Made by a program: the position numbers and the translations under genes. Below the pieces are notes generated by a model. That model worked only from the letters and a program-made list of their open reading frames with translations, was not told where the DNA came from and did no database searches. A stretch of DNA of 64,000 bases from Nereocystis luetkeana (taxonomy: Eukaryota > Sar > Phaeophyceae > Laminariales > Laminariaceae), in contig JARUPZ010000003.1 of NCBI GenBank assembly GCA_031213475.1, forward strand, positions 8,796,313-8,860,312, read 5' to 3'. Numbering within the stretch: position 1 is the first letter of the stretch; every line of letters starts with the position of its first letter. Positions 1,617-34,767 of the stretch are shown in pieces.

Positions 1617-1852
1617 TCACAGCACCCCCTCTCCTTGTCCGACGTGATGACCGGTCCTTTTGAGCAGGCCGCAACAAATGCCGTACACAATCAACAGAAG
1701 CGCCGATATCACGACGCAAACGACATAGAGCGCAGATGGCCACAACCCGTCGTCAGGTCCCATAAGTGCGGCTATAAGAGCAGGCATCAGCATATCTCCC
1801 AGCGCACCGCCGATTACCATTTTCGACGAATTCTTACCTGAGAGGAAGAACC
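1617..1852 (-). CDS. MFS gene exon 8 (TM11-TM12 and stop)
   Basis: The acceptor is CGAGGCAG/GG, entered in phase 1. It encodes FFLSGKNSSKMVIGGALGD and MLMPALIAAL (TM11), then SALYVVCVVISALLLIVYGI (TM12) and a 20-residue basic tail before the stop ending at 1,617. The exon 7/8 junction LLSSAG-FFLSGKNSS is typical of the TM10-TM11 loop. Confidence 0.75.
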
Positions 1853-4800: not shown

Positions 4801-7800
4801 TACGTAGCACAAGATACGTTTAGTTTATCAACCTGAGCCTCAATTCGTTTGCCGGCATCTTGCTGCATACCAGGTACCTGGTACCAGGTATATGAGAAGA
4901 AAAAATAAACTATGAGTCGTAAGATCGAAACTCGAATATTATGTCTGCAAGTTTTGTGTCACATTCCAATCACGTGGAGTGTACCACGAAGCCGCCTATT
5001 ATACCTGCCTGACCGCCCGCCAATTATGCCCAAGATGGATAGAAAGACCGGCCGAACCGAACAAATACAAACTTCTCCAAGAGTTTACCTCCTTTTTCAG
5101 CTAGACGAACCTTCAGCACTTCCTAAACCACACATCGAAACACGAACGCACTCAGCACCCTCACCAGCGCTCGAGAGAAGTGACATTACGAGCGGGAAGC
5201 TCGAGGCCATGGTCAGCCCAAACAGTCCAACTCCTAGTGCGGCCCATGCATAACTCACCTTTGGCGCGGTGGCATCAACGGGGGGGGGGGGGGGGGGGGG
5301 GTCAAAGGCTAGACGCGGGAATCAATGACGAACAATTCATTCCCGCGTGTTTATCAACACTTTCCCCACATGTATAAGCGGTAGAAAAGCGCCCTGAGGG
5401 GGAGAATGGCGCTGAAGACATGGCGCACGCTGCAACTGGCATGCACCAATGTTGCGTGATTCTCCTGACTTAACTAGAGGAGCTCCGTTCCATAGTTCAC
5501 TACCGAGCTTGCGACAAAGCGATGGTGGATTCAGACGCGTTCTACGATAGAGGTAGCACCTTCCGGCCTAACTATTTTCTGAATGACGGGGTTTTTTATC
5601 CCAAAAGCATTCAGAATATCAATCTTGGTTTCGAAAAATGACGTTTTTTGTATACTATGACCATGGGATTGTTCATCGGGATGCAAGTTGATTTTTGCTG
5701 AAGTCAGTTTCCGGGTGACGTATGGATCTCCTTAAGCGAGGAGCCTCAGAAAATTTAGGGTGACCCTCTATTCTAGAAAACCTCTTCAGCGAAGCAATAC
5801 CAGAAGCATTCTACAATAGGGGTATCACGTTGAGAGGAAAACCTCCCCGAACTACCACGGTGTTCTTACCGGTCGCCAGTTGAGGGATGATTACTAACGT
5901 ATGCTCTACATTGTTCCGCATAATTCCTACGTAGACGTACGTACGAGATGCGTGCAGCATCAGCTGTATTAATTTCTTGTCTTCGTTGAGTTTTGCAATA
6001 CCGGTGTGCATCGGGGGCACACAACAGCCTCGTAAAATTTCGGGTGAACCTCTATCGTAGAACCCCTCACCAGGGTCTAGACATGAAACGAATAATTGAG
6101 TTAGATACTAGTTCATTTCATGTACTTTTATTAATACCCTGGAAGGACGGAATATCACCAGCCGGAGCTATTGGTTATGTACGCAGAAACATCTACGCCT
6201 ATTGTTTAGCCGAGTTGGGGTAAGCGTTCAGCAATACAAAACTCCGGCAATGAGACACGCGCCTAAGATGTGTAGTCGATGAACGCAAAGGCGGTAACAG
6301 CAAGGACAATCTAGCCTATGCGTAAAGAATAGCCGATTACACTCCCGTAGGCTGCATAGGTTAGCGATGGTAGTAGTGAAACTGACCGAGCAGACACGTT
6401 GCGTGTCGAGGATGTAAAATATTGCTTCAAAAAAGCCCATAGAAGGGAAATCAAACTATGAAGATGATCTGCGATAAATTCAGATACGGTCTGACGAGTG
6501 AGCGTGGGGTGTGTGCAAAACGCTCCAGGTCCCCAATCTTGATAGGCTCGTGCAGAACGTGTATCAAAAGGCTTGTCGCGGCAACTCGTTGACTACAATA
6601 ACTTCTGAAGGGTTTTCTATGTATCCCGGTGCCAAAAATGCAGTGTAGTTAGTTGAACCACAACTTACGAGGCATTGGCTCATTAGACTATCCACTGAAT
6701 ATGTCTCAACACTCCCCCCCAATGCAAGCTGCACTGCATAAATTTAAATGTTTCCGAGCGATAGAAGACGTGCCCAAAGTTTTGATCATGGCTCTAGATC
6801 CTCAGCACTCCTGGGAAGGGATAGACCCTGTACGAAATCGCCAATCATGCCAAGCGATCACCAACACTTGTTGGAGGTTATAAAAGCACGACTAAAGGAC
6901 CAGCCATGGCTAGCGATTGCCAGCACTTGTTGGAAAGGATAGAAACAAAACTACAGTCCCGATCAAGGCTACCTGGTAGCGATCACCAGCACCTGTTGGA
7001 ACCTATAGGAACATGACTGGAGTGCCGAATATGGCTATAACTATCACCACTATTCGTTGGAAGCGATATAATCATAGCTACTGTGCTAACCTTGGCTAGC
7101 GATCCCATGCACTTGTTGGAAGCTGTGGAAGCAATGGTAAAGTCCCGATGATGACTAACCACCGTCAGCACACGTTGAACGCGATGGAAACCTAACTACA
7201 GCGCCGATCACGGCTAACGACCACCGCCACTTGTTAAAAAGACTATATTCCACTATTAGCAAAAAGACTGACTGTGTAAAACAAAACCCAGCGTCTTGTG
7301 CAGTGCATTGCCATTCGAAATGTTCTTCGCATTGTTGAACTTATTCATGGCAATTAAAAAGCAAAAGTAACAAATTACCTCACAGAACACGTAGAGGTCC
7401 TGACAACAGGGCTTCCGTAGCTCATTGTTGATAGCATGATATTATATCGAACCGATGCGGCGTACTGTAGCGCTATTAGAAACGGTACCACCCTAGCTGA
7501 ATAAACAGCGGTGTGACCACACTTACGCGTAAATGTTACGAACAAGGACAGTCAGCAGAACCCCTTACTCTTTGATTGTCTAGACGTTTCAATTTCAGGC
7601 CCTGGATTCGCTGATCAACTTGAAACGATAGCGCTGCGTTTTTTATTGAATTGCTTGCAGCGGGGCCAATGCCGACAAGCTGGTACTCTGATTTCGCTGA
7701 TATATATGACGGCCGTTCTGCTCTCGTTGACTAGCTCCTGGATGAAGAAGTACCGAAGAGCAACGTGCTTAACAGATAAACTGTAAGCCCAATTTCCGAC

Positions 7801-10800: not shown

Positions 10801-12728
10801 GCACGGGCCCATCGAGTATTACAATATTGCTTTCCGGATTGTTGAATAGATCTAGGCGCTTGCAATGTAGGCGTCCTAGTCGCTAATGCCACGGATTGGT
10901 GTTAGCAGCAGTCTGAGGTGCCAGCTCCGGCTGCCAAGGAGACCGTCCGTGAGCGCCGATCCGTCCTACACACAGGTGATCCCGTGATCCCCTCTAATAC
11001 CCCAGGTTGTATTGGTGTTTGTATACACTGCAACATAAAGCGAGTTGCCAAGCGAGAGCCACAGGTAGTGGGGCATGGCCGCCACCACTAGCGCACGGGT
11101 CATAGCCGCCCAACCCCCGACGATGTACGTTCGGAGTCCCAGTTGATGGCCCGGTTCTGCCTTAACCGTGTAAAGCGAATCGCCGGAGACTTCTTCGCTG
11201 ACGCCGCAGAAATCTCCCGAACAGTCCTCTGGTGTCGAGGGCGTCATCTGCGGGACCGAGTTGCCAGAGTTCTACCTCCTCCGTCCCTGTTTCCGCCGCT
11301 GTGAATGCGATAGGGTGGCCAATGTAGTGGGGAGCGGCATGTTTTTCGTTGCCGGCGTTTGCACTCCTGGTGAGTAGTCCGATCCGCGTTGCTATGTGCA
11401 TTGGACTCATGGAACGAACACCACTAATTCGCATCTCCCCTTCTCCTCGCGTCTCCGGGCCCTGCTTTTGTTTGCCTGTTTCCGTGATGATGTCGAACCC
11501 ACTGGTTGGCCCTACGCCGGCTTTCCATATATCGCTTTTTTGTCCCTTCTTTTTTTCATCTTTCTTTCATTCCCGTTTGTACCTCTTTGTGTCTCTGTTA
11601 GTATGGCCCGTTTTGGCTTTTTGTTTGCGTTTTGCTATCTGCTCCTGTTTTTTGTTTAGTATTATTTTGCTTCGCTTCATCTTCTTTTTTACGTTTTTGT
11701 CTGCAATTAATTGTCTCCTTTTTGCTTCCCTGGTGTCCGCAGTGGTGGATTGCGCATGCTTGTTCTTTCGTTTTTGCCTCTGTTTTACTACCGAGGTATT
11801 CCTTCCACTCCAGAGTTGTTGGAGCCTGTCCTGCGACCACGGACTGCATTATATTGTGAGGTAATGTGAGAACAGCAACAACAACAACAAAACAACCCTT
11901 CAGGACGGCGCAGTCTGGTATGGCGAGTCCGATTCCGTCGAAGGAGCTCCACTTTTTGTCGCTTGCCGTTGTGTATGGCGACCTTCATGGTCACACCACG
12001 GCCGGCGACCATCTTAGAGTTCAAAGACCGCAAAATTATGTCGACGTATAAAGTGTGCGCCACGGCATCCAGTCCTAAGCCCCGTTCCCGTAGTTAGTTG
12101 GTGGTTCGTACCCTCTGATGTTTGGTAGGAAGAGCTTAAGAGATGAAGTTTTCCTACCTGGCGTAGTGTAAAACATTTCATCCATTTCAACAAAGAGTCG
12201 CGACATTGGTTCAGGACGAAGTGGAAGTCATCAGGATCCTGGCCAGAGTCAATCTTCGTGTTGACCAGCTCCTCATGACACGCCGATCTGGCCTCCTTCG
12301 TTGTACTTCTCGCGCAAGGTCTCCCACGCACCCCGTCTTTGCCACGACCCATAGTATGGCCGCTTTCCCTCGAACGTCTGGATGGTACTGTTTGCAGAGA
12401 AAAGATGTGGGAGAAGTGGAACGCTTCAGCGACCTTGGTTCGCTTGTTTCCATATCTTCCCAGCGACGGTACGATGCATCGCGGTGGCGATGCCCCCCAG
12501 AGCTGGTGCTGGCTGGGCGTTGCCTTGAAACACGTTCAAAAACAGGCTTGCTGAAAGCGATAGACAGGCGCGAAGGTTGCTCTTGGAACCGGCAAATGTG
12601 TTCTTGTTCTTGCCGGCGGAGGTCGGGAAGGTTTTAAGCATTGTCTTGGTGTTCTTAGACGCCATGATATCCATAGCGATCACGAGACGCAGAAGACAAA
12701 TGCGTCCCTTCGGTCAATTAATACAAAG

Positions 12729-12759
<31 letters not shown>

Positions 12760-15700
12760 ACAGTAGACAAAAGACGAATCCGCGTCTCGGCGGCGGTGAT
12801 GAAAACGAATAACAAATTAGCAAACACCCCCCCCCGCAGTCTGTGTGGGAATCTAAAATATAAACACTATCGCGTGTAAAAAGACGAACCCGAGTCTCGG
12901 TCGCGGGGCCAAGTGCACACTTGCCCGAGTCTGTGGCGGGCCACTGAATCGTGGAACCGAGCTATGTCAAGCCCCCGACAAAACTAACCAAAGCCGAGAG
13001 GCTCTGAAGAGAAAAGAAAATTTGTCTGAGAAGCTTGGTGTAAAATCCTCTGATGTTCCAGCCCCGGGTCCACCCAGGTTCCCGGTGCGCGCGCCGCACT
13101 GAAACGAGGGAATCATACATACTGTACATAATTTTCGATGAGACTCCCAACAGTAGTGTTCATAGGTTAGTGATGGCCGTCCCTAACATAACCGAGCAGA
13201 CACGCGGCTTGTCGACGATGTCAAACATCAATTACTCTTGAAAAGAAGGGCCGCACGAGGGCGAATATATTCGCGCAGAAGCGTAGGTTTAACAGCCGTT
13301 GACTTGTGAGCGTTAGTGGAGTACAGACGGTAGTATATAGCATAGTCGTCATTGCTGCCTCGTCGACACCGCAAGCTGTTTTGCTAATAATGCTGTTCGG
13401 AGACAAATACGGCATTGTCCGCTCACAATACAGAAGAGATCGGATCAGGCTCGAATACGCTACTACCAGGGTACTACATTGCTGCAGTACTACACACAAG
13501 GTATATGACACCCGGATCAGGGATCAGGCTCAAAGAGGTACTACAATGCCGCCTGCGAGTAGTAGGGCGAACAGTAGTAGCAACACGCAGCATTACAGCG
13601 TTACTGCTGCAGTACACTGGTACATAGGTACAGGGGTAGTACGGATTTGATATCATTTTAGAGTCGGGAGTCGAACTCGAATGCCAACAAAAAAAAATTA
13701 AAAAGTGAAATCTACACGAGACAACAGACAGGTCAGGTGTGGCTCGGGCGTTGGGCGGCATCGGGTGACGAACTGCTTGTTCAGGCATCTCTTGCTGCTG
13801 CGACCTCGTGGCGCCGAGCCGCGAGCGTCTAAGTTCGAGTCTCCTTGGCCTTTCGCAATCCTGCCGGGTGGAGGTCGCTCAGTGTGGCAGCAGAGAGAAC
13901 GAAAGAGAGGACAATCCTGGTCCTGCGAACTGATAGGCATGCAGCCTGCTGCGCTGCAGCTGCAGCACTGCTGCTGGTACGTAGAGTTCGTAGGCAGAAG
14001 TTGTCGTTGTCTGGACCTTGAGTACGTACACGCAACCCAGCAATACATGGTAGGGACCCCAGCACGGGTCCGTATCTACGACACTGGGTGCGCTCCGGAT
14101 GAGCGGCGGCTGTACTTCTCCAGCACTGCGGTGTTGATGACACTCCCGTCGTGACACCGCGCCGTTGTAGTTCACCTCTGCTGCTGTGCTGACTGCTATG
14201 ATCGCAGTACGCCGAGCGCCACAATAATTTACCGTCCCGAGCATGTCCCGCAGTATACCCCAGAATCGTTTATGGGGAGTTGCGTTTGGGAAGTTGTGTC
14301 CGGGAGGCTGCGCCGCGGAATACAGCAATAATAGTCCTATCGAGTAAAATAATGCTTCTGCCATCAAGGTATGACGATGAAATGTGGTACGTTCAGATGT
14401 TGGTTGATGAGTGGGCGTGGGGTGTGTGCAAACACTTCCAGGCCCTCAATCTTGACAGCCGCTCTCAGCATCGACGGCTTGTCGCCGGCTATAAGAACTG
14501 TTGAGAGGTTTCCTAAACAACCCGATACCAATATTGAGTATTTGTTTGAACCGTCACTCACCAAGCATTGACTCAATGGACTATGCACCGCCTATCTGTT
14601 GACACTCTGGTCCAAACTCTTGTTCATGTCTACAAATCTATCCAGTTACATCCTCGATTCCCGCTGTCATACCTGTAACACAGCAGTAGAAACTACTGCA
14701 GTGCAAGCAATCCTGTTCATGACGCTCACCCTTCCAGCTAAAAGCAGCAGCAGGGACGACAGTAGGCCACCCAGTAGATTAGCCCTTATAAGGAAGGCGT
14801 TGGAGAATCGAACCGCCAGGGGTACTGCCAGTAGTCTCCCCACTGTAATCCCACCCCAGAACAGGCTGGCACGAAGACGCGAAGAGAAAAACAGAGCCAG
14901 CGAAGAGTTTTAAAGGTGTCGCGGTATATATATCCCACGCAAGATCAATGGATTGCGCTATTCAAAGGTATAGTTCGCTCGCTACTGACGTTCAAAACTA
15001 TTACCAGAATCAGTGTCGCTCAAACACGACAAGATCGCTGATTTATTTCCGGGAGGGGGGGGGGGGGAGGGGGGGGTGCTGAAACACGGGTGACTGAGAC
15101 AGCCGGGGTCCCGTCGCCGATGCGAGCGCTGAACCTGTTTAGGGCGCACAACCGATACTTTGCCAAGGGCGGCGGCGATGTTAAACTCCTGAACCAGCCG
15201 AAGCGGTACAGGGCACCTCATGTGCAACCTCAAGTTTGCCAGAGCGGGACCCAGCTCTAGGGCACCAGCATCACCGACGTAAATGAGAGCAGCAAGATAA
15301 ATCGGCATACGATGGCCCTCTCAGGCAATCCCGGTCGTAAATCGAAAGTGAAATAGTGATCGCGTAAGCGAGATATGAACGACAGGCAAGGTCGTCGTCG
15401 TCGTGTTCTTCTCCCCACCTGGCCATGCGAACGGCACCCGCTTCTCCAGATAACCCATCTCGCAGTACAACAACGGCGATCCAGGCGCCGAACCCGACCT
15501 CGGCTCCGACGTAGAGAAACAAAAAGAAGGACAGCAGAGCTATCAGGGAGAACGGCGGACGGTTTCCCTGCCCCCCCCTTCGAGCAAGCAGGGCTGTTTT
15601 GTCGCTCTTGCCAAACTGTAGATCCGCCACAACGTCGCATGCGGCTTTTTTGTTTCCGCCCGAACATGACCTTTCCGACAGCACGTGCGCCGCCACCGCT

Positions 15701-18700
15701 CCGGTGCTCTCGTTTAGTGTTGGTGGCTGCAAATTTGCACGAGCCGTGGATGACTCTGCGGTTGCTGCCGCGGTGGCGTCCGGAAGCTTGAGATGTTGAC
15801 CATCTTGATCATGCACCATGCTTGCAGCTATCGGTAGGATGCTCGCCGATGGAGATATAGACGCCGTCTCTTCGTTCCGATGACAAATTAACTCTTCTTT
15901 GGAAACAAGGCTTCCGTCTGAAAGCCGTCGCGATGCTGCTCCTCGGCGGTAAAATCGGGCACAAACAAACGGTGGGAACAACTTAGTACGTGCACTTACT
16001 TCCGAATATATACCATTAGTAGGAGCAAACAACGCAGGTATGCTACGCTTTACAACCGGTGGTTGCACCAGTAATACTGTATGTATCTCGAGGTTTTCAA
16101 GGCCATTTTTAGTAAGCAAACATGACCAAAACGATTGTGCGTCCTACGTCCTTCGGTGCCACAAGGTGCGCGACCTTGACGTACATGTACGATACTTAAC
16201 CCCGGGCACGTCTGCTACTGTTCCACCACCAGCATCCCGTTTGCAGCATACACGGATTAGGATGCCCGTCGTCTATCAAAATAACGTCGATCAAGCGCTT
16301 CACGCCTCCTCGAAGTATTTCGGCGTCTCACATAGGTGATAAAGTACAAATACCACCAATACTTCTGAGGCTTGAAAGACGAGGGGCTCTGCAACCTTGC
16401 CCTGCAATCGACCATCCGAAACGTATTGTAAGCTACGCCCGACGAGCAGCCGCTTGGACTACACATTTATCGCATGCCATCATATACTGCAGATCGAATC
16501 CGTAGACATTGTGAAGATCCTCAGGTAGAGGCGACTCCTTTCGCTCCGCCAACATATGTCTGATCAAAACCTTAATGTCCCTTTCTACGCGTGCGCTTCT
16601 CGTCGTCTCGCGTGTGCATCAGTCATCACACAACCGAAGCCCACGCCTTACCTTCCATACTATCCGCATCGCTTTCGAAAGAAGCGGTGCTATCTGTCAT
16701 ATACGTCGTTTTATCCGATTTGTCTTGGAGCAACATCCCCTTTCCACCTCCTCGCAAAGGCCAGCCACTGCTGCTGCTGTCACTCTCATCGCCGCCGTCG
16801 GCCACATAGCAAGCTAGAGACGCCGGCATTGCCAGGAGACCAAACGTTACGAACACCGTTCGGTACCCAAGCTGGCCGACGGTGGCGGGCGCCACGAGCG
16901 CGCCGACACTGAAGCAAAAATGCAAACCCTGCTCGTGCGTGATTGGTGGTTGCGGTCGGCGAGAGTAAGCGAACTGATGGCGGGGAATAGTGCGCATTGT
17001 TGTGTGGATACCGAAATGTATCTACAAAGAAGAAAACACACACATTCCTGTGTTGGTCAAAAACATTTTGGGTGGATGCTTTGTTCGGTAGGTACTGAGC
17101 TTCCAAGTTTATTATTATGCCTCATTAATGCTCAATACGTTTGCTGCCGAAATGGATTTCACAAGATTGACCGGTTCATAGACCAGCCCCATGGGAGTGT
17201 GCATCATGTTTCCAGGAGCGTCCAATTGTTCCTCTAAGGTGGTGGTGGGATGTGGTATGGACATCATCATCAACCAGAGGTCATCATAAACATTGGGCGC
17301 CTTACGACATAGGATAGGTATATGTTCATACAACATGAACGTAAATGTTATTCACCAGACGACGGGTGATTGCTTCGGATCGAGTGCCAAACAGTAATTA
17401 CTACTATTATAGATATCGTACGCAGGATTTATGGCGTAGGTGAAGACTCCATTGAAACGAAACGATGTTGCTACCCCTCGCCCGTGGTCGGCGGACATAG
17501 CAACCTTCGCTTTCCCACCCACCGAGACGCGAACAATCAGTACGCCGTTCGTTCCTAACCACTACCGCCCATTTGGGCGTTGCAAATAGTCAAGCGATAC
17601 AACACTGGCCTGCATCCAGGGCGCTGCTCCAGTGCTATGGATGTCGCTGATGGCAGCATTAGCAATAGTGTCGATAACCCCGCCGCAGAAGCCCTGCGAA
17701 TAGAATCGATTGCGTGTTGTTGAAGAATGAGAGGTCGCTCAGTAGAAAAATGGGCAGTAAGTACATATAATATCGATTTGTCTTCTGGTACTACTGCAGC
17801 AGTCCATATAGGTGTTGGGTGCTCTTTATCCTGCTAGCGCTGACGGCGTACTCGTTAGTACCTCGATTTGACACTCGGTTGTTTCCTTGTATAAAAAACC
17901 CTAGACGACCCAGCTTCTTTCTCGACGGCAACTAGCCAGGATTCCAAACATCATTCGTCAACGAACAGCAGCGTTCGCTCTAAACCTGATCCCGGCGACA
18001 GTCTGTTCGCCTTCTGTATAACGCCGGACAAGTCGTTTGTTGAGTTGATTGTTGCGGTCGGTCGCGCGCGGACGAGCTATGCTTGTTTTTTGTATCCTAC
18101 TGTTGTGTTCGCAACTCGACGCTTGTATTCCACAGATAACATCGACCAGCACCAGGTCGGATCGTTGGCGTACTTCAGTGCCCTATCGGCTGAGAATGTG
18201 CGAGCCAAGCCCACGCGACTTACGACCCAACCAATAACACGTTTGCTTCGTAGTGCTACCGAGGAAGCTCACGGATTGAGTGAGCGTACCACCCCCATCT
18301 CCTTAGCAAAACTCGAGTTAGTTCGCACCGTTCTCCTGCAGATGTTCTGCCTCGTTCACCACACGGCCCTATTACGCGTGGCCACTACAAAACTCGGCGT
18401 TTCGGATCCGGAGAGAAACCCGCGCAGGCTAGCCTCTATTCTGGCGTGAGAGTTTTTTTTAAATCCAATCGGAAACGGACGATATCGACGTATGCTGCAC
18501 CTTGATTTTTCCGAGGCTACACAGATGAGGAGATTTGTACACCCACGCAAAAGCCGACAATTAGATACTATATATATATATATATATGCACTGTTGAGTA
18601 GACGTAGCAGCCCATACATACAGTGGCTTTCTTCTGAATGATTTCACCAAACGCGGAAAGATCACAAATGATCTTGGATAGTTTCTCCGACGAGTAGCCC

Positions 18701-21700
18701 GCCAGTCAGGTTCTTCTCAGCTAGTAGCCCGTCAGTCAGGAGTTTCTCCGGCCATTAATTTGTACGAACCTACAAGGTGTATTGCAGCACACGTCTTCGA
18801 CAAACGCGTTAGCAGGTAGCAGCGGAGGCGTACGATGCCGTCAGCACCAAACCGCACGGTACGTGGGTGGTAACGAGGGGAGGCTCCTCATACTACAAGA
18901 ACCTCTCACTGCGTGGACGAACTTGCTCGAGAGCAGCGTCGTCAAACTGGGAAAAATACAAGACCAGAGACTGGTCACAAGGAACGCAGTCGGTCAAGCC
19001 TGTGACTGTAAACAGAAACATTTCGCATCTGAAAGTGGCAGAAATTCCCCCTATAATATAGGTAATAAAAGCGGTCACATCTATGGCCGGAAGCACCAAG
19101 CGCTTTCCAACCGACCGTAACATAACCTGAAACAACACTTGGCTGGCACACCATCTAAGTACCACTTTTGTTTTACCTGACGGAGATTCAAACCGATTCT
19201 GTCCAACGGTACTCCGTATTCTCGTCAGACTGAAGCACCAAGTGCAAACCAAACGGAACGTTCGAGTCGCCACGAGCGCAGTCGAAGAAAGACACAACAC
19301 TTACTTGCTTTCGTAGACGGAAATGCTAGATGATAACGTGGTCACGATTTGAAAAAACACAGAGCCGAAAACCAAACGGTCGGTGAAGAACGTCACCGCG
19401 AACAGACATATTTCGCGTACGAATGGCAACAAAGTTTATAGACGGGATTTCAACGGTCACATCTATGCGCAGAAGCACCAAGAGCCTACCACCCAACGAA
19501 CGGTAACATCACCTGAAAATTTCACCTCGCGCGCACACCAATCAACGTTCACATCACCTGATATATTGTCAACACCGCCTGCACGGTTCTTATTACCTGA
19601 CAAAGGCACCAAACGCAAACCAACCAGAAGGTTCCAGCCGCGACGAGCGCGATAGAAAAAAGCCCAATGCCGGTTGTCGCGGCCCCCAAGCGGCTCATGC
19701 GATTATTGAGGGCCTTTCGTAGACGCGGTCTGAGCCCCGTCGGCGGCAGCCTGGTATCCGACAAAAAGGCATCGGGCAATGGTAAGCAACAAATATGTAG
19801 TGGCTTGAAGGATAGTCTAGCCGTATTCCATGGGCGAAATACCGAAATTGTTTCGAACCCAAGACGGTAATTCGACGGTAAGGGTAGGTGTATTTTCTTG
19901 TGAGAAGCGCCGTACCTCGCCCGGCAACATTATTCGAGAAAAGCTGGGAGCAAGGTACAACCCATGTATCCTATGATGGGGCTTGGTGTAGCCAACACGT
20001 ACCGGGCATTGTTGTATAAGTACATGCCGGCCACACATGTAGTGGGTAGCCGTCGACGCGTGCTGCGATAAAAGTAGCACCTTTTGGCCAACCTACGTTT
20101 TGACGTACGGAGCTCCTCCAGCGGGGAATCGTTGGAGTCCCGTACGTTTCTCCACACAATATTTCCATTGTTTACCTGCAGTAGTAGGGCATAGCTTCGC
20201 TCGTCGGGTTACACTTTCATGCTTTTAGAAGGTCAGGGGTACATAGAGCTCCTCTAGCGAGGGTTTCTATAGCAAACAAGTTTTCGTTGGTTAGGGGATT
20301 GCTACTATATACCAGGCAGGAAAGAAAAAAACCAAACCAAGATTTTCGCAAACACCCTATTAGCGTCACGCCATACATATGGCACGTCGGCAAATACTTC
20401 CAGGTAAGCAACCGCGGCCTTTTCTTGTGCCTTTATTTCGGAGACCAAAAGGCACGGGCCAAGGTGTAACTCGACAAACTGCTTGATTTTCGCGTGATAT
20501 CACCTTTGTTTCACACGTTTTTCTTCTGCTTATTATGTATGCATCTATCTGTGGTATACACTTGCACGGCAGTATAGCTGGCTCATCCCTCTTCATTTGT
20601 CGCTAAATAAATCCTGTTTAGGAAAATGAGAAGCATTTTTGCATCATCCCACTCTGCTATTAATAGTAGTAGTAGTATTGATTCAAGTCAGCGTGAGGCT
20701 TCGAATAGATTTTGCCTACAGTACAATGATCCTCTTAATAGCGGGGCGTGAGAAGAATTCCACACTACTTGTTCGATTCGTCTGTAGTAGGCTTGTCTGT
20801 CTATATATGTTCGCCTGCTTGCTGAGTACTGCATTCAAGTTTCGCTGTCTGAATCAGTGCGAGGTGCGAGACTTGTCGATACACCATTTTCAACACACAC
20901 GGCGTGTACGGAGGTGGGCAAGCTTGCGCCAAACTCGCGGGCTTGGCTTCGCTGCAAGCCGTCTCGAGTGGGCCATCCTGGCCGTGCCGCGATGTGCTTG
21001 CGCCAATCCTGTTGTCTGTGTTGAAAGCGACGATTTCGAGCAAGTTCTTCCCGACAGAAGGGTTCGAAGTGTCGCCGTCGTGTCTGGGTAGTCTGCAATT
21101 TTTCAGCGAGCCAAGCGCATCGAAGACAAAATGACAGAACGATCGAGGTAAAATATTATCAACACTCTGCGCACATAATTGTCTGAGATAGTCACACATG
21201 CCGTCGGATTCCGCGTGGATTAAAGGTTCGGCTCGAATGTCAGCCTAGACTCGTTGTGTTTCTTGTGAGCTCAAAGCCCCACATGTCGTGGGATTTCGCG
21301 TGGATTGAGGGTTCGGCCCGAGCGTCAGCCTAAAAGCGCTGTGCTTCTTGGAAAAGTCGAAAACACACCATATCACGTTTTTCGAGATGGCCTCGAGGTT
21401 ATTAGACAATAAATGACTCGTGACTCGAGGCATTAACACCTGAGGCCTAGATCTAGCATGGCTGTTGAAGCATGATATTCCCCCCTATGACAAAGCTTAG
21501 GCTACTGGACAACCTCGGGTGTGTACCTGCGCGTACTTTACCTGCTGTCCAGTCTTCCGAGTAGCTATGCTGTGATATGTTGCTCTTCTGCCTACGATAG
21601 TAGTACTGCGGTTTTGCTATGCTTCCAGAAAGCACACGCTATGTGTACATGTGCACACAAGAACATACACCGTGCCGAACATATCGCCATTCCTATTGGT

Positions 21701-24700
21701 AGATGGGCACTGCCTACGTACTGTAGTACGAGCTACGTTGGGCCAGGTAACTCTGCGTTATCAAGCAACGACAATTAATATTAATAGGTTATATTTCCTA
21801 CGGCTGTAGTGCACGTCATCCCTAATGCCCTATCTGGTAGGTGAGTGGAAAACCAATGCATACACCGCCAGCACGAGCAAGTACGTGTCATGGGCGAACA
21901 ATTCACCTCCCTTCTCCCTGTTGTTTGGTGTCAATCACTCTTATTCATGGTCCGTGTGTTCTAAAGCATGTACAGAACAACAGTACGTCCATACAACGCT
22001 ACCACCCGGCGTTCGTATCAAAGACGCACAGTTTTACTGACAACAGCACAGGCTGGCAGCGCATAATAGAGAGTACCCTGAGCGCCCGACAACCCACGAT
22101 ATATCCAGAGCCTCATCACAGCATGTATCCAGCTATACCGGGAAGACGCCTTTTATCACCGCCCCCGGGACAATACTCGTTAAATCCCCTGGCAGTAGAC
22201 GCAAATATATACGCGTAACTTTTTCAAGCGGCCGTTCTCTCGTAGTTACACGACGTGGGGTTCTGGTCAGCATCGACGTAACGGTCATCCCTGATGTATT
22301 ATAAAGGTGTTCGACAAAAAATCTGTTTGCATGAAAACCGAAGAGTCCGTGCCCGCACTTCGTGGGGATGTCGAACGATTTTCGTACAGGGCCCTCTATT
22401 ATTACCACTCATTACGGGGGACCATACTAAAAAGGACTTCACTTACGGTAGCCCCAAAAACAAACTGTACACATCGCTATTTTAACGAACAATATTCCGT
22501 TGTAATTACTATGGCCCCCCGCAATAGGAACATTGATAGTTGATTGGATTTTAATGACGTGAGGGGGTCTGCCCCTTTAGCTCGCTGACTTGCTTGCGCC
22601 TGTCTGCATGCGCAACATGGCTCTCCTCGTCACGAAGCCTATGAACGACAGAACCAAGCACGCTTAACCCCTTTTAGAACCGCAGTCCCGTTTTCGGGAC
22701 AAACTACTTGAAATTTGAGTGGTTTGTCCCCAACTATAGGACTGCGGTTCTAAAGGGGTTAACCCCTTTAGAACCGCAGTCCCGTTTTCGGGACAAACTA
22801 CTTGAAGTTTGAGGGCATTGTCCCAAAAAACGGAACTGCGGTTCTAAAAGGGTTAGGCATGCCTCTACCCAAACGTGTACGTAGTTCATGCATGCACTGC
22901 GGATGTTTGACTACAGCTACAGTATGTATGTGCTCGGGGGTGCCCCCGAAATTCCACCTTGGTGCCAGAAATCAATTATTAAGACAGTCACGCACTGCTT
23001 GAAGGGCGCGAGATCCATCACGCACCCACCGGAGCCAACATTATCCGAGTGAATTGTTATTAAAAGTATGATCAGTCGAAACAGACTCATCATCTTGAGA
23101 TATGTTGTCAAATCCCACCAGGTGACAATCACGTTTACGGCACGTTTGCCCACGACATGTACGCCCAACTACAATCAACATTGAAAATACCTTATGAACA
23201 CAACCCTCAAGATCCAAGAAATCCACCATCAGTCGACAAGGCTGGGTGGCATTTATGACGTAATCCCGATCCCATCAGAGAGAGGTCGCCAATGGCCCTC
23301 CCTGCATGGGCTTTCGACTGCACACCAGGCAACCACACACATATCATGTCATCCACACCCCAAGGCCGCACAAACACTCTGGAAGGAGACAGCGGTCTCA
23401 GTCCGTTCGATTTGTTTCTTTTACGGCGTATGCACGCCCAACGTGTCGTACTATTCGTTACTACTGCGCAGCATGTTGCTATCTCGGAAATCATTAAAGT
23501 CGCGGGATCCGAGTAGATCCAGTATGCACTCTCTCATCACCCTGCGAACAAAACACGAGCCGCGACGGTTGGGCGAACGCGACGCGCGCGAATGTGTTGT
23601 CGTCGGATTCTCGTTCGGAGAGGTCAGGGGGGCGGATGCTGGGTGTTTGCGTCCGTGGCGACCCTGGCAGGGCCGATACCCGTGAAATGGTGGTTTCTGA
23701 ACGGCTTTCAGACGGCAAGAAGAAGCGAAAGGGTCTTGGTTGTGTTCCGCACTACCCCGAACGCGTGAAACGAGCTCGTGTTACAGCCATGTTTCGATGC
23801 CTTGTGCGGTTAGATAGCTCCAATGTTTGGTGGTAGGAGCGCAGATCGCGTGGTGGGCGCCCATCTTTTATTTACAAGCGATTGCACCAAATAAATATAA
23901 AAATGATGGCCTTATCGCGTTGGGATGGCCATTGTTGTCGGTGCATACTTAGCGCAAACGATTGTCGACGAAGTGCATGCGATGTACGTAGCTCGCTGTG
24001 AACATGGTACCCCAATAGTATATTCTGCGTCTTCAATCAGTGCCATGCCAGACTATGAAATGCAGCGTACACTCCTGCATTAGTACAAAACAGTTTATAG
24101 TTAAATATAACTGTATTCCGGTTTATGGTAGCGTGCGCATCTATGCAGAATATTTTCGAAGCATGATGTATGATGTATTGTTTTGTACAGTAGAACCCTG
24201 TGCGTGTGATGTAATTAGACATACAAGGGTCAGCTCAGCTGTCATATCGAAACATACTCGGGAATCTTTTTTGTAGGTGGCGTGCGTACTGTGGCCCACA
24301 ATGGACATTTTTTTAAAGGGGAATCCCTCGGGATTTTCCCCATGGTTTTGTGCGGGATTCGGAATTCGGAATATTCCCATAGCCACGTGATAAATGTGAT
24401 TCCCCGCCGCTGTACAAACGCGTCCCGAACAAGTTTCAATACTCTGCTTGCGCGACACGGAAAACAGTAAATCCCGTTCCAGCACAAACACGCCCTGCAG
24501 AAATGTTAATACCTGGTATTAAATTCCCGCACAAACACGTCCCTCACAATTTAGGGCATCTCGTTAATACTCCGGTTCCGCACAAGCACGTCCTGCACAA
24601 TCCAAGATATACCTACTGCTTTGTGATCCCGTGAGTAAAAACAAAGCAGTCAAAAGCCCGTATTTTCTCACGCGTATATTGTGCCGGTCCTTTCACAAGA

Positions 24701-27700: not shown

Positions 27701-30700
27701 CGAAAGAAAAAAACCTCGGAAACAAAGGAAACCCATGCACCAAGGCTACCTCCCATCTGTGCCAACTTTCGGATTGTCTACTCCATTTATTTGCTGTCCT
27801 TGTTCCTTCCTTGTCATTACGTTCAATCCTAAGCTGCACCCAACTTATATTATTGTTGATGGTCTCGCTTCTTGAGTGTCACGAATGAACAAAACAACAC
27901 ATACATACATGATACTCTAAATAAATCATGATGATGATGTTTACCAGGTAGTCAACATATATAAGCATAGCCACATCAAGAGAGGGCCTAGACGTTGGGA
28001 CGATTGCAGCCGTGAGACCATGATTAATACTCCGAGTAAGTAGTATGGTATGCTAAACGAACGCCAGAAAGAATGAAGCGCGCACACCCAATATTGAACA
28101 ATGAGTAAGTTTGGACGAAACCCTCACGCTCACAGCTTAGCTGATGATCTCTGGCGGCATATATATCGACAACAACAGAGAACGCAATGAGAAAGGAAGG
28201 AGCAAGGGCTGCAAATTAAATGGAGTAGACAAGCCTAAAGTTGGCACAGAAGGGAGGTAGACTTGGTGCATGCATGGGTTTCCTTTTGTTTCCTTTTGTT
28301 TTCTTCTTTATTTCGGGGAAGTTATGAGTGATCAATGTGGAAGAGATCATGCTGCACATTGTCGGATGGCAAGGCAAAAATAATAACAGAGTGTACGGCG
28401 AAAACACTTTTCATGATAATTTATTCTAAGTAATCCCCAATCATTTCAATACCAGGTATATATATTTTGCTCACCTACCTGCCTCCTCTCGCAGTAAGTA
28501 GAATCCACAGTACGGACGATGTTGCTATCACACTAGGATTGGAAATCTGAGCTACGACGAAGCAATCAATTTCTTAAGAGTGTTTCATCGATACCCTAAT
28601 ATCTATCTATCGTGTCCGCTTTTTTTACGAAACATTAATACTGCGCGTGAATTTACAGTCGCAAACTACCGCAGAATAATTTACGTATGTCTCCACCTGC
28701 ATCGTCGATGGAATTTGGCCCTCGCACGCCCCGGTCGATTTTTCTTCTCTCTGAAAAAATATGGAAACATGTCCTTGGCCACTTCTTATGCAGCCGGAAA
28801 CTAGGATTGAAAAACCGGTTTCCGACCGGTTTTATTTTTCCGACTGGATTGCGAATAATAGCTATTACGGGGGGCCATAGTTAACAGGACCAAATATTGT
28901 TAGTAAAAATGGTTAAACATATAGGTTTTTATGTGTACCATAGGTCCTGTTAACTGTGGCCCGCCGTAATATATACCCTCCTTATCGTCTGTCGGATCGA
29001 ATATATATACAGCTTTTGTGATTTTCGTGGAGACCACAGGAGACGCTTGATGTAAGTGAGGGAGTGTAGCTTGACCACTGCTGCTGTAGCACCGAGAAAA
29101 GGGTGTAAGGTAGACGGAAGTCGGTTTCAAACTGCTTCTATTAATAATAGCCGTAATGTTCGTGGGGTCGGAGAGGTGTTCATCCTCCAGCAGCAGCATG
29201 CAGCTGTGCCCAACCACACATACATACATACATACATACATGCTGATGTCTCGCTTCTTCCTCGAGCAGCGTGTGAGCTTCACACGGGGGGGCGTTCTCC
29301 CCCATCTCGTTCTCGAGACCATCAAGACTCTGGCTTTCTTCGACAGTTAGTTGCCAAAGCTGCAGCCAGGGCAGCAGTTAGTTGGCAAAAAAAGATCATC
29401 ATCGATACCGCACACTGCGGCCATCGGGTGCTGCCACGTGCTGCGTGCTGACGGGCACAGATGAGGATATATCACGCTGACACAAGCCAAGCAGCAGCAG
29501 CAAGCAGCAGACGTGACGGCAGCCAAGCCAGCGTCTCCGATGCTGTGGTGTGGGGTTGTGTCGTACCAGGTGTGTCGTGTTGTTGCGTGGGTGTGTGATA
29601 CTCGTACGAGTATGCGGCTGAACTTTCTAACATTTTTTTTCCGATGCACGAATCCGACTGACGAGTTGGATCGGAAAGCGTAGTATCTCTAATAAGTTCA
29701 GGTGAGATAGATGCCTGTTTTGTTCACAACCGACGGAATTAATTATGGTCTCTACCGACGGAAATTAAATGGCTTAATTTGTTCAGAGGCAGAGAGAAGA
29801 GAAGGACGGCCACATTCGTTTCGTGCCCCCTCCTAGCTTCTCGCAGCTCGTGATAGGTGCACGAGGAGAGCACGGCACCGCTCGCTGCCGATTGATAGGC
29901 CTAGAGGCTAGGCCTACCGTTGTGGTTTCTCCGTTTTTTCGACTGTCTGGTCCAGTTGGAAATCATGGCCGCTTATTTTTAATTGAAGAGGCGCTTTGTC
30001 AACTGCATAATAAGATTGCCATTTTTTGTCTCCAATCGGAAACCGGTTTTTTCTGTCCTAGTTTCCGACTGCATAAGATGTGGTATTATTTTTAAATGCC
30101 GCTCGGTACAAGCAGCCGTGATGATCATGGTATCCAAACATACCTGGTACAGATTTATAACACTGCTGTGATACGGGTATGAATTACACACCAGAACAAG
30201 TGTCCGCTATTATTTGACAAGCTACGTAGAAACCTCGACGGTTATCTTTATTCTTAAATATATCGTAGACAACACGCACTCCTCGAATTCTGCAGCTTCA
30301 GGTTCGCCTCCCTCATATATATACGGACTGTACTCCCTGCACAAAACCGTGTAAACCCCGTAGTACGCACCATCAAAGGACATAGATACACACCACTTGC
30401 ATAGACGAGTTTCGACCAAATCCTCGGTCTCACAGCTAGCTGTGGCTTCTTTTTTTTTTGTAAGCATGGGTCTCAGTTCCACCACTCAAACGTTATACTC
30501 GAGAGAAATTAAAATGTGGTTGTGAGCAATGCCATGATATTAAGGCCGGCGTCTTGGTTTCTGATGTCCTCAATTGAAGTGAGGAGCTCAACTTATCCTC
30601 CGAAACAGGACGACTTCGACTATTATATTGGCTTGCGCAACCCAACCCATGAGTTATTTCTAAAATGTACTTCGTATGAAAAATACTTCGTAATACAGTG

Positions 30701-33700: not shown

Positions 33701-34767
33701 TTTACTACCAGGTAGGTATAGTCCTCCGTGGTAGTGAATCCACACTACACACTACTGGTACTGCGGGTCGTGTCGTCAGTCGAATGATTTCCATCCACCC
33801 CCATCCCTTTCGTGCAGACTTCGTAGGCCAGGGGGTTAATTGTTCATCGGTCGGGTGAAACCGAGTGTGAACTTTCGCAATTGGAGCTCTTGGTCGAGGG
33901 TTTTAGAGAGCCCGTCATGTTGGGAGCCTTGCCTCAGAAGGCAGAAGAAGCAGGTGCACCCTTCTCGTGGCACGCACTATTTACAAGTTATATTTTTTCT
34001 GTCCCCTTGGTCTACACGATAAGATGAAACTATTTTTTTCGAATGTATCGTGGTACAACGGGAGACCCGAGACCGCGAGCGAGGTTTAAGGCTTGGCGGT
34101 GGTTTTGATTTTATTTTTTGTTTGCGCGACTTGAGCTACTAATTAATGTAATAAATAATAGTGTGGAGAAAATAATTATCGGTAAAGGAAGGAAACGATA
34201 TACCTGGTACTATATAACAAGGGACGCGGTAGAGGGGGGGGGGGGTGAAATTATATCTAATATTTGTGTCACGCTTGCCATCCGACAATGTGCAGCATGA
34301 GCTTCAACGTTGATCACTCCCAACATTCCTGACAGAAAAGAAATCCCCGGAAACAAAAGAAACCTATGCACAAGGTATATCTACCTCCTATGTCGACCTC
34401 CCTCTTTGTTTATATACAATACTCCATTCGTTGCCTTTGCTCCCTCCTCTCGTGTTTGCGACAGTACCTGAGCTACGAGTGGCGCGGATGTATTATCGAT
34501 CGGTTGTCTTTTGAGGATAATATATATCAAACGCATTGCTTGCCTGAGGGATGAAGACCACGATCCCAGCAGATGCCCGAACCCCCGAAGTGAAAACACC
34601 ATGCCGAAGGACACTTCCTGGGTACCGACATCGCGTGAGAGCGCGGGGACCGCCGGGCCTAACGCACTCACGAACACCCCCAGCAAGAAGAAGGACAAAA
34701 ACATGGCAAGTGACGGCGAAAGCCGGTTCACATCGCGAGCCAGGGCAACTTTACTCGCTTGGCACAT
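1617..34767 (-). CDS. MFS transporter, MFSD4/NaGLT1-like, eight exons (whole gene)
   Basis: Reconstructed by hand from eight minus-strand exons: 34767-34562 (or to 34544), 19750-19597, 17231-17163, 16928-16652, 15935-15419, 14865-14730, 5258-5165 and 1852-1617. All phases agree, total coding length is 1689 nt (562 aa; 568 aa with the alternative exon 1 end), and the only stop is the last codon. In order the exons give TM1-2, TM3, the end of TM4, TM5-6, a polar loop of about 175 residues plus TM7, TM8-9, TM10, and TM11-12. Motifs: GVFVSALGPAVPAL (TM1), EPVNLGLHFCFSVGAL across the exon 3/4 junction, ASLFWGGITVGRLLAVPL across exon 5/6, and VIGGALGDMLMPAL (TM11). These suit the MFS branch that includes MFSD4 and sodium-dependent glucose transporter 1; a plasma-membrane or endomembrane carrier is inferred and the substrate is unknown. 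Motif A after TM2 is not clear, so a small exon could be missing in intron 1. The start ATG follows an in-frame TAA five codons upstream. Confidence 0.78.
1853..5164. other. Intron 7 of the MFS gene (3.3 kb)
   Basis: Open frames here are short and match nothing I know. The one clear structure is at about 4,868-4,895, where ACCAGGTA/TACCTGGT units are packed head to head (TACCAGG-TACC-TGGTACC-AGG). Single copies of the same 8-mer occur near 2,060 and 2,153. Confidence 0.6.
5165..5258 (-). CDS. MFS gene exon 7 (TM10)
   Basis: A 94-nt exon in phase 0, out phase 1, encoding VSYAWAALGVGLFGLTMASS followed by FPLVMSLLSSAG. This is the TM10 helix with the (S/A)SFP-type motif. The donor is GCTG/GTGAGG. 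The acceptor (CCAAAG/GTG) is weak, but a run of about 22 C on the coding strand (G-tract 5,280-5,301) sits just upstream and acts as an extreme pyrimidine tract. Confidence 0.7.
5280..5301. repeat. Poly-G tract (poly-C on the transcribed strand)
   Basis: About 22 consecutive G on the plus strand, 20 bases upstream of exon 7 in transcription sense. It reads as a pure C run directly before the acceptor and probably serves as the polypyrimidine tract. Confidence 0.85.
5539..5781 (+). mobile_element. MITE-like element, CTACGATAGAGGT family, copy 1
   Basis: A 243-bp unit that begins GTTCTACGATAGAGGTAGCA and ends with the imperfect inverse (GACCCTCTATTCTAGAAAAC). It has no coding capacity. Its internal blocks (CTGAATGACGGGGTTTTTTA, CCATGGGATTGTTCATCGGG, TTTTTGCTGAAGTCAG, GGATCTCCTTAAGCGAGGAG) are shared in the same order with the copies at 9,331 and 51,799 (inverted). 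A non-autonomous DNA transposon is the simplest reading. Confidence 0.7.
5809..6068 (+). mobile_element. Related inverted-repeat element with a different core
   Basis: It starts ATTCTACAATAGGGGTATCA and ends GGGTGAACCTCTATCGTAGA-AC, so the ends resemble the CTACGATAGAGGT family. The centre is unrelated to the 240-bp copies. It lies 30 bp from copy 1, so it may be a sister subfamily or one arm of a composite. Confidence 0.5.
6335..6711 (-). repeat. Copia element 3' LTR
   Basis: On the minus strand it starts TGTTGAGACATATTCAGTGG at 6,711, immediately after a polypurine tract. It aligns with the region ending at 14,604, sharing blocks such as GAGCGTGGGGTGTGTGCAAA / GGGCGTGGGGTGTGTGCAAA, CATAGGTTAG.GATGG and ACCGAGCAGACACG. 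The low-coordinate boundary is uncertain because similarity fades near 6,335. Confidence 0.65.
6712..6720 (-). other. Copia polypurine tract
   Basis: The minus strand reads CATTGGGGGGGAG immediately before the TGTTGAG start of the 3' LTR. That is the expected position and composition for a plus-strand priming site. Confidence 0.7.
6785..7240 (+). repeat. Minisatellite of about 60 bp, 7-8 units, in the Copia 3' noncoding region
   Basis: Units share the core GGCTAGCGATCACCAGCACT-TGTTGGAAG followed by a diverged tail. Cores start near 6,797, 6,856, 6,916, 6,980, 7,042, 7,103, 7,165 and 7,222, a period of 59-64 bp. It sits between the RNase H end and the polypurine tract. One similar unit recurs alone near 46,412. 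Confidence 0.75.
7615..8158 (-). pseudogene. Copia RNase H remnant
   Basis: Two frames carry Copia-type RNase H motifs in order: YLAGTLDFAIT...DANWDYNPDDG..MALYIVFL (8,158-7,949), then AEFVSAALEMKKAVC...LHINNNSRLHVVGN...KHVALRYFFIQELV (7,938-7,690). The family's catalytic DAxW and the later acidic and basic motifs are visible. The two halves are out of frame, so the domain is broken. Confidence 0.8.
8548..9250 (-). pseudogene. Copia reverse transcriptase remnant
   Basis: A frame ending near 8,548 contains KTAFLNADVTE, the conserved Copia RT block (D-x-K-T-A-F-L-N), with decayed sequence on both sides. The segment 9,247-8,980 reads as the usual linker before RT (LPDIVHETYEADLAMEYINA, then an acidic stretch). 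Several stops and frame changes show it is dead. Confidence 0.78.
9331..9569 (+). mobile_element. MITE-like element, CTACGATAGAGGT family, copy 2, inside Copia pol
   Basis: A 239-bp unit from GTTCTACGATTGAGGTAGCA to GAACCTCTATCGTAGAAC, collinear with copy 1. It interrupts the pol region between integrase and RT, so it inserted after the Copia element. The right flank continues the palindrome (AACGCCTC), matching the left end of copy 3 (GAGGCGTT); the true terminal repeat is therefore about 21 bp. Confidence 0.75.
9960..10860 (-). pseudogene. Copia GAG-pre-integrase and integrase remnant
   Basis: Read on the minus strand from about 10,860: a decayed zinc-binding pre-integrase segment (LGHLHCKRLDLFNN...CNAGESHQLAHP), then VFADQIGPLTP, DEHSKWTETFPLKSKHDAL, KGVEFIIKEFQG, and the downstream PHSAIDIQFP and NMLHGTGRDL block. 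The first catalytic Asp (FADQIGP) remains. The second (usual TDxGGEF) is altered to RWRVLKGVEF, and the E-block is degenerate. Stops and shifts are scattered throughout. Confidence 0.8.
10870..11590 (-). other. Probable Copia protease region, not resolved
   Basis: By position this lies between gag and integrase, where Copia elements encode the aspartic protease. Minus-strand frames here are open for 80-90 codons, but I could not find a D(T/S)G active site. It may be mutated beyond recognition. Confidence 0.35.
11598..12683 (-). pseudogene. Copia gag remnant
   Basis: Three frames together give gag landmarks in order: FEGKRPYYG...AWETLREKYNEGG (near 12,370-12,300), then HEELVNTKIDSGQDPDDFHF and VLNQC (12,285-12,200), and a basic, zinc-knuckle-like end (CAIHHCGHQGSKKETINC, near 11,760). 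A start is possible at the ATG of MASKNTKT near 12,665. Frame changes near 12,450 and 12,300 inactivate it. Confidence 0.75.
12728..12758. repeat. (TA)n microsatellite
   Basis: Alternating TA over about 30 bp, just upstream of the Copia gag. Confidence 0.9.
13135..14604 (-). repeat. Copia element 5' LTR with an insertion of about 1.1 kb
   Basis: The outer end at 14,604 begins TGTCAACAGATAGGCGGTGC on the minus strand. The outer 250 bp (14,370-14,604) and the inner 120 bp (13,135-13,245) align with the two halves of the 3' LTR, but about 1.1 kb (13,250-14,365) has no counterpart there. The insert is rich in GTAGTA/CTGCAGTAC motifs and has no recognised coding. The primer-binding site was not fixed; GGAACATCAGAGG near 13,057 on the minus strand is a candidate. 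Confidence 0.6.
14730..14865 (-). CDS. MFS gene exon 6 (TM8-TM9)
   Basis: The acceptor is GTGCCAG/C and the donor is GGAAGG/GTGAGC, phase 2 to phase 0. The junction with exon 5 reads RMASLFWGGITVGRLLAVPL, which matches the TM8 motif (S.FWG..T.GR) of this transporter branch. A second hydrophobic run, LLGGLLSSLLLLLAGR, is TM9. The exon ends only about 125 bp from the outer edge of the Copia LTR (14,604). Confidence 0.78.
15419..15935 (-). CDS. MFS gene exon 5 (large loop and TM7)
   Basis: The largest exon at 517 nt, with acceptor GAGCAG/CATCG and donor GCCAG/GTGGGG, phase 1 to phase 2. About 126 polar residues complete the central TM6-TM7 loop, rich in S, A, T and K. TM7 follows (LIALLSFFLFLYVGAEVGFG), then LSGEAGAVRMA leading into exon 6. 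The loop of about 175 residues is long for this family and may carry regulatory sites. Confidence 0.75.
16652..16928 (-). CDS. MFS gene exon 4 (TM5-TM6)
   Basis: The acceptor is GAGCAG/GGT and the donor is GGAAG/GTAAGG (near consensus); it enters in phase 0 and leaves in phase 1. It encodes GLHFCFSVGALVAPATVG (TM5), a second hydrophobic segment ending ASLACYV (TM6), and then the first 50 residues of an acidic, serine-rich loop. Confidence 0.78.
17163..17231 (-). CDS. MFS gene exon 3 (23 codons, end of TM4 and TM4-5 loop)
   Basis: A 69-nt exon with acceptor TTAGAG/GAA and donor CTT/GTGAAA, phase 0 on both sides. It encodes EQLDAPGNMM...EPVNL. The pattern LD..GN.M...G...EPVN directly before GLHFCF is a family hallmark in MFSD4-type transporters, which supports this very short exon despite its ordinary acceptor. 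Confidence 0.7.
18569..18588. repeat. (TA)n microsatellite
   Basis: About 20 bp of alternating AT in intron 2 of the MFS gene. Confidence 0.85.
18880..19665. repeat. Imperfect direct duplication of about 330 bp covering part of MFS exon 2
   Basis: The segments ~18,990-19,315 and ~19,375-19,665 align: GGTCACATCTATGGCCGGAA against GGTCACATCTATGCGCAGAA, CACCAAG.GC, TAACAT.ACCTGAAA, and GCACCAAGTGCAAACCAAAC against GCACCAAACGCAAACCAACC. The downstream copy in transcription (19,215-19,300) holds a decayed copy of the TM3 end with the donor GT lost, so it is a pseudo-exon. Confidence 0.65.
19597..19750 (-). CDS. MFS gene exon 2 (TM3)
   Basis: The acceptor is ACCAG/G after a pyrimidine-rich stretch and the donor is GTCAG/GTAATA. 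It is entered in phase 2 and left in phase 0. It encodes a basic loop (LRPRLRKALNNRMSRL) and a hydrophobic segment (TGIGLFSIALVAAGTFWLV), as expected for the TM2-TM3 loop and TM3. The 3' half of this exon has a decayed duplicate at about 19,215-19,300. Confidence 0.7.
20059..20130 (+). repeat. Diverged end of the CTACGATAGAGGT element family
   Basis: GTGCTGCGATAAAAGTAGCA-CCTTTT resembles the family start GTTCTACGATAGAGGTAGCA-CCTTCC. The shared GGAGCTCCTCCAGCGGGG motif follows 45 bp later. No matching right end was found. Confidence 0.35.
22412..22525 (+). mobile_element. TA-flanked MITE (TTACGG.GG.CCATA ends), diverged copy
   Basis: The left end ATTACGGGGGACCATACTAA and right end TTACTATGGCCCCCCGCAAT form inverted repeats. 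The ends match the two better copies at 28,864 and 50,225; the interior is diverged. Confidence 0.5.
22666..22760. mobile_element. 95-bp palindromic element, copy A
   Basis: It starts AACCCCTTTTAGAACCGCAG and ends with the inverse CTGCGGTTCTAAAGGGGTT. The arms continue with TCCCGTTTTCGGGACAAAC and GTTTGTCCCCAACTATAGGA around a short AT-rich spacer (TACTTGAAATTTGAGTG). It is nearly a perfect palindrome and would fold into a long hairpin. Confidence 0.85.
22761..22854. mobile_element. 95-bp palindromic element, copy B (abuts copy A)
   Basis: The same palindrome as copy A, starting at the next base with no spacer: AGGGGTT/AACCCC joins the two. Sequence identity is high apart from a CCCAAAAAACGGAACTGCGG variant in the right arm. 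Confidence 0.85.
24320..24620. repeat. Degenerate repeat with CCCGCACAAACACGTCC motif
   Basis: Successive occurrences of GTTTTGTGCGGGATTCGG (as inverse), CCAGCACAAACACGCCCTGC, CCCGCACAAACACGTCCCTC and CCGCACAAGCACGTCCTGCA, spaced 35-70 bp apart. Confidence 0.55.
25620..25930. repeat. Degenerate repeat with GATCCCGCACAAACA motif
   Basis: Units of about 30-40 bp built on (A/G)TCCCGC.(C/G)...: for example GGATCCCGCCCATTGAGTAC, GGATCCCGCACAAACAAAAA and CGAATCCCGTCGCGGC. It appears related to the 24.3 kb block and, inverted, to the 53.5 kb minisatellite. Confidence 0.5.
27645..27815 (+). repeat. Interspersed repeat of about 170 bp (CGACAATGTGCAGCATGA), copy 1
   Basis: Shared landmarks: GACAATGTGCAGCATGATCT, TTGATCACTC, GGAAACAAAGGAAACCCATG, CACCAAGGCTACCTCCC and ATTGTCTACTCCATTTATTT. 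Other copies are at 28,216-28,385 (inverted) and 34,275-34,450 (same strand), with a short piece at 38,560. Confidence 0.65.
28216..28385 (-). repeat. Interspersed repeat of about 170 bp, copy 2 (inverted)
   Basis: The reverse complement of copy 1 with about 80% similarity by eye: AATGGAGTAGACAAGCCTAA, ACCTTGGTGCATG-type and AGATCATGCTGCACATTGTC. With copy 1 it forms an inverted pair separated by about 400 bp. Confidence 0.65.
28864..28970 (+). mobile_element. TA-flanked MITE of about 107 bp
   Basis: The arms ATTACGGGGGGCCATAGTTA-ACAGGACC and GGTCCTGTTAACTGTGGCCC-GCCGTAAT are inverted repeats of 28 bp with two mismatches, around CAAATATTGTTAGTAAAAAT. The 50,225 copy is nearly identical. TA-like target duplications suit a Tc1/mariner-mobilised MITE. 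Confidence 0.8.
29219..29241. repeat. (CATA)n microsatellite
   Basis: Five to six CATA units in intron 1. Confidence 0.9.
31426..31675 (+). repeat. Interspersed repeat of about 250 bp ending in a C run, copy 1
   Basis: Shared with 47,673-47,930: TGC.TGACGAGCGGTTCTT against CGCCTCACAAGCGGTTCTT, GGATGCAGC, CACGGCGCTTCGCGCTT, GCTCCGTCCCGGCATTG-AGGGATGCGA, GTCTATGGTC-TACGACTACG, and a terminal ATCGAGTACCCCCCCC. The common C-rich 3' end suggests a retroposed (SINE-like or LINE 3') sequence. Confidence 0.65.
33612..33708 (+). mobile_element. TA-flanked MITE, degraded copy
   Basis: CTATTGCAGGGGACCCTATT-AAATAGGACC resembles the family start. A truncated right end (TATTTGGCCCTATT) follows 80 bp later. 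Confidence 0.4.
34275..34450 (+). repeat. Interspersed repeat of about 170 bp, copy 3
   Basis: CCATCCGACAATGTGCAGCA, TTGATCACTCCCAACATTCC, GGAAACAAAAGAAACCTATG and ACAATACTCCATTCGTTGCC, in the same order as the 27.6 kb copy. It ends about 90 bp from MFS exon 1. Confidence 0.65.
34544..34767 (-). CDS. MFS gene exon 1 (TM1-TM2)
   Basis: Begins at ATG 34767-34765; an in-frame TAA lies just upstream, so this is the first available start. It encodes a short polar lead, TM1 (LSFFLLGVFVSALGPAVPAL) and TM2 ending RGFGHLLGS. Two donors are possible, both phase 2 and 18 nt apart: GT after 34562 (ATC/GTGGTC, weak), or a GC-type donor after 34544 (CAG/GCAAGC, a strong match to GC-AG introns). Both join exon 2 in frame. 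Confidence 0.7.

Follow-up and report, generated by a model that had tools for sequence, protein, structure and literature searches.

A probable eight-exon MFS transporter gene of Nereocystis luetkeana and its close second copy

Exons of the gene

In the window, that is, the whole 64,000-nt stretch of Nereocystis luetkeana DNA analyzed here, eight exons lie on the minus strand between an ATG at 34,767 and the end of a TGA at 1,617. Spliced in phase, they give a protein of 573 residues without an internal stop, and the coding length of 1,722 nt takes up ~5.2% of a span of 33,151 nt. The preliminary description had already recognized eight in-phase minus-strand segments over this span, with a coding share of ~5%, as well as the 94-nt exon 7. 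Introns 1 to 7 measure 14,793, 1,903, 681, 716, 553, 9,471, and 3,312 nt. The exons are listed below, with a slash at the splice point of each donor; the second copy is a related gene elsewhere in the same genome.

Exon 1, 34544..34767, minus strand: 224 nt; start ATG at 34,767; TM1-TM2; donor CAG/GCAAGC (GC); supported by blastn against the second copy (80% over 34,558-34,740)
Exon 2, 19597..19750, minus strand: 154 nt; loop 2-3, TM3, and the first part of TM4; donor CAG/GTAATA; supported as a conserved block (71% over 161 nt against the second copy), with length and phases equal in both
Exon 3, 17610..17693, minus strand: 84 nt (28 codons); end of TM4 towards TM5; donor CAG/GCCAGT (GC)
Exon 4, 16652..16928, minus strand: 277 nt; TM5-TM6 and the first part of the central loop; donor AAG/GTAAGG
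Exon 5, 15419..15935, minus strand: 517 nt; central loop and TM7 (AEVGFGAWI)
Exon 6, 14730..14865, minus strand: 136 nt; TM8-TM9; donor AGG/GTGAGC
Exon 7, 5165..5258, minus strand: 94 nt; TM10; poly-C tract upstream of the acceptor; the exon starts with a donor-like GTGAGT
Exon 8, 1617..1852, minus strand: 236 nt including the stop TGA; TM11-TM12

Hydropathy windows above 1.3, grouped by hand, fall at 11 of the 12 expected helix places, with TM2 below the threshold. The position of the start codon is not conserved, exon 1 of the second copy being shorter by 18 nt. The acceptor of exon 5 was picked by likeness to the second copy, and in-phase AGs with a first base at 15,941 or 15,917 may be used instead. 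For exon 8, a first base at 1,852 was preferred over 1,837, also in phase, since the 1,852 acceptor aligns with that of the second copy; on this alignment, earlier placements of the exon 5 and exon 8 starts at 15,917 and 1,837 were given up for 15,935 and 1,852.

GC donors occur in two of the seven introns of the window gene. GC-AG introns form a recognized minority, approximately one in a hundred introns in animals and plants. Two of seven in a single gene is unusual, yet not new in kind. The intron 3 donor is GC in both copies (CAG/GCCAGT in the window and CAG/GCACGT in the second copy), and in each of them the GT four bases downstream of the GC would break the frame. At intron 1, the window has GC (CAG/GCAAGC), whereas the second copy has GT (GAC/GTGAGT).

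In intron 2, a 57-nt stretch (19235-19291, minus strand) repeats part of exon 2 in degenerate form (79% identical), with no evident splice donor; it could be a failed or an alternative exon. In intron 6, GTGAG is found at the donor (14730) and again right after the acceptor (5258), and GTAAG stands at these two sites in the second copy; the intron looks as if it had been created when an AGGT-containing stretch was duplicated in tandem.

The second copy and the gene model

The genome holding the window (465,085,209 bases in 1,987 contigs) was searched with the protein of our first model, which had 548 residues. Of 17 matches, 8 fell in the window, 7 at C12:8,202,969-8,227,780, and 2 had E values >1. 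The seven matches on contig C12 correspond, in the same order and all on one strand, to seven of the eight first-model exons. DNA comparison of this region with the window then gave a match at 71% identity to window positions 19,593-19,753, which hold the true exon 2; matches outside the eight exons were mostly repeats out of order.

The second copy has eight collinear exons of 206, 154, 84, 271, 511, 136, 94, and 230 nt, with phases equal at all seven junctions and splice sites in agreement. Exons 2, 3, 6, and 7 are identical in length between the copies. Intron lengths are not conserved; those of the second copy are 17,968, 919, 551, 795, 487, 563, and 1,831 nt, and intron 6 in particular measures 9,471 nt in the window versus 563 nt. 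In-phase joining alone proves little, as splice sites are chosen to fit, but the second copy removes most of this freedom, even though its own splice sites were also chosen by hand, guided by alignment with the window gene. At the level of sequence comparison, we consider it the decisive evidence for the gene model.

The first model had placed exon 2 at 25,267-25,171. This candidate is in phase and MFS-positive, and it was rejected: it lacks a counterpart in the second copy, has a weak donor, and leaves a gap of 13 residues in TM3 relative to the bacterial relatives. No convincing extra micro-exon was found among 370 candidates in intron 1 (34,500-25,350).

Exon 3 had been described as 69 nt (23 codons) and is in fact 84 nt (17,693-17,610). 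The start of the shorter version is not preceded by AG, while the 84-nt version is found in the second copy too, with a CAG acceptor in the matching position. The N-half score against Pfam MFS_1 differs little between them (27.7 bits with 69 nt and 29.5 with 84 nt, both obtained with the false exon 2); the choice is settled by the acceptor and by the second copy. The five additional residues of exon 3 account for most of the excess of the final protein over the 562 to 568 residues given previously, a length that is itself compatible with the true exon 2 (19,750-19,597).

Several repeats were also observed in the window:

22664-22855, 36490-36585, and 37596-37684: palindromic repeats of ~95 nt, with the unit counted from TTAACCC; two in tandem
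28862-28971: repeat of 110 nt, also at 50222-50328
54138-54707 and 61488-62057: inverted repeat of ~570 nt (91% identity between copies separated by 6.8 kb), plus a third, shorter copy at 57003-57086
59440-59985: degenerate minisatellite, unit ~32 nt, 11 register copies found
55055-55597, minus strand: weak ALOG domain match (E 0.0017; 19 bits versus a cut-off of 26.6)

Intron 1 of the second copy of the gene also carries related copies of the palindromic repeat and several copies of the 110-nt repeat. The palindromic repeats look like small nonautonomous DNA elements; viral contigs searched with an 18-base piece of them gave no match. Tyrosine recombinases from mobile elements are relatives of the ALOG domain. 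The match here may be due to chance, since it was not listed again in the six-frame Pfam scan of the larger stretch. Six-frame scans of 54,138-62,057 returned no domain above the cut-off. Twenty further long frames likewise had no Pfam match above the cut-off, and Rfam gave no match at gathering scores.

MFS membership and alternative explanations

The final protein matches Pfam MFS_1 (PF07690) with 49.9 bits (E 2.9e-13; cut-off 33.4) over profile positions 1 to 321 of 347, with the helices in order, in line with the MFS identity proposed previously. The 548-residue protein of the first model was already above the cut-off (42.2 bits), and the true exon 2 raises the N half to 40.6 bits, compared with 29.5 with the wrong one. 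A scan of the genome with MFS_1 gave at least 9 matches, so other MFS genes are present; the window gene is absent among the matches listed, as expected from its short exons.

It could be argued that hydrophobic frames were joined here by chance and do not form one gene, and indeed one exon of the first model was such a chance frame. Furthermore, when the eight true exon frames were scanned singly, two of them (exons 1 and 4) matched MFS_1, weakly. The fact that only two frames match alone also indicates that the strength of the match comes from joining. Ablation and order controls, which used the first model with its wrong exon 2, behaved as follows. The N half fell from 29.5 to 21.5 bits without exon 3 and to 27.8 without the then exon 2, which had therefore added only 1.7 bits. 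The C half lost its match without exon 6, fell from 19.4 to 7.6 bits without exon 7, and scored 22.5 without exon 8. With the exon order reversed, the MFS_1 match was lost in both halves. Other hydrophobic frames, joined from 20 of 36 plus-strand pieces or from 23 of 25 minus-strand pieces, gave no MFS match, the minus-strand set not being a pure decoy because it held part of the true exon 2; the frame that holds this exon (19,552-19,929), scanned as a decoy before it was recognized, did not match alone. Six hydrophobic pieces cut mechanically from the exon frames of the first model, including the false exon 2 and lacking exons 3 and 7, also gave no match when joined, from which it follows that the match depends on correct joining. 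Together with the recurrence of all eight exons at another genomic locus, collinear and with equal phases, these results make a chance assembly extremely unlikely.

A pseudogene deserves slightly more attention, although we judge it very unlikely as well. Under this explanation, the exons would be relics of a disused MFS gene, with a lesion at the intron 1 donor, which is GC here and GT in the second copy; the degenerate, partial repeat of exon 2 in intron 2 (19,291-19,235) could be read in the same sense. On the contrary, 573 codons run without a stop or a frameshift, CAG/GCAAGC fits the consensus of GC-type donors, and the window copy outscores the second copy for MFS_1 (38.5 bits for the latter). 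The two proteins (573 and 561 residues) are identical at 338 of 556 aligned residues (61%), and a simple Nei-Gojobori count gives a dS of 0.87 and a dN of 0.28. The resulting dN/dS of ~0.32, with dN below dS in all eight exons, argues against decay, although a pairwise value cannot alone assign constraint to one copy. Exon 6 has the lowest ratio (0.09/1.18) and exon 5, with the central loop, the highest (0.47/0.87). As far as substitution counts can tell, this pattern is that of two genes that are both maintained as proteins and are most constrained in their membrane parts.

Thus, we are confident that the window holds a eukaryotic gene, very probably working, for an MFS transporter. The gene has eight exons and one close second copy, and its 573-residue product has a long central loop and probably 12 helices. 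It is a real, probably functional gene for a transporter of ordinary type. The main value of the analysis is for annotation, with the second copy fixing the gene model: exons 2, 3, and 7 are short, introns of the window copy are up to 14.8 kb long, and GC donors occur twice, a combination that may cause automatic callers to break up the gene or miss it.

Substrate branch and comparison with known systems

The two six-helix halves of MFS transporters function by alternating access. The window protein would be expected to move a small, probably polar solute across the membrane in this way, perhaps coupled to H+ or Na+. The suggestion that this solute is sugar-like derives from a weak match to TsgA. 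TsgA, GluP, and NaGLT1 share a branch of the MFS, and among NCBIfam models the window protein scores best with TsgA (NF002982), at 25.6 bits versus a cut-off of 221 (E 6.1e-6). The only other NCBIfam match, to CrcB (19.7 of 128 bits), is chance-like. A scan for bacterial relatives returned two loci with MFS proteins, L001 from a Bacillota MAG and L002 from an Anaerolineae MAG, matching at 40% and 26%, respectively, in the best segment, around TM7-TM10. The TsgA model matches three of the four members of the four-sequence alignment, and models for aromatic acid/H+ symport (8.7e-14), GluP (1.2e-12), and lactate transport (8e-11) match one member each. Among the curated models of the fucose/galactose/glucose branch, TsgA is below its cut-off and GluP is absent from the NCBIfam matches of the window protein. 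This miss is expected, since these models are bacterial or archaeal and the window protein is a distant eukaryotic relative. As the TsgA score is low and other MFS branches are also matched, the substrate branch is only a lead, and the match points weakly to a sugar-type branch.

A search of solved structures with a profile that included L001 and L002 gave 30 rows up to an E value of 10. NorA, SLC18B1, and the vesicular acetylcholine transporter scored best, with matches confined to the N half (E 7e-6 to 3e-4). Neither MFSD4 nor NaGLT1 is named in any of these 30 rows, and PDB chains gave no match to the protein of the first model. A more ambitious proposal would combine the weak substrate pointer with the splice donors: a lineage-specific pair of sugar-type MFS genes in which the GC-AG intron 3 of both copies, together with the GC versus GT difference at the second donor, perhaps offers a handle for regulated splicing. 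We regard this proposal as quite improbable and keep to the reading of an ordinary MFS transporter.

Compared with known systems, this transporter shares with MFS_1 (PF07690) the two halves joined by a long loop and the order of the helices. The common MFS loop 2-3 motif contains D-R; in both copies, loop 2-3 ends instead in LR.ALNN, without this pair. With TsgA-type MFS proteins, L001, and L002, it shares the TM7 motif EVGFGAW, identical in all four aligned sequences, while L001 and L002 lack its long central loop. Finally, the tie to vertebrate NaGLT1/MFSD4 suggested in the preliminary description is plausible, and the matches above are compatible with it. The window protein probably resembles these transporters in predicted architecture, with 12 helices and a long loop between the halves. 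An excerpt of one report describes MFSD4A as having 12 predicted helices and a long cytoplasmic loop between its halves (PMC5648162), and an excerpt of another gives lengths of 514 and 518 residues for vertebrate NaGLT1/MFSD4 (PMC5627054), compared with 573 for the window protein.
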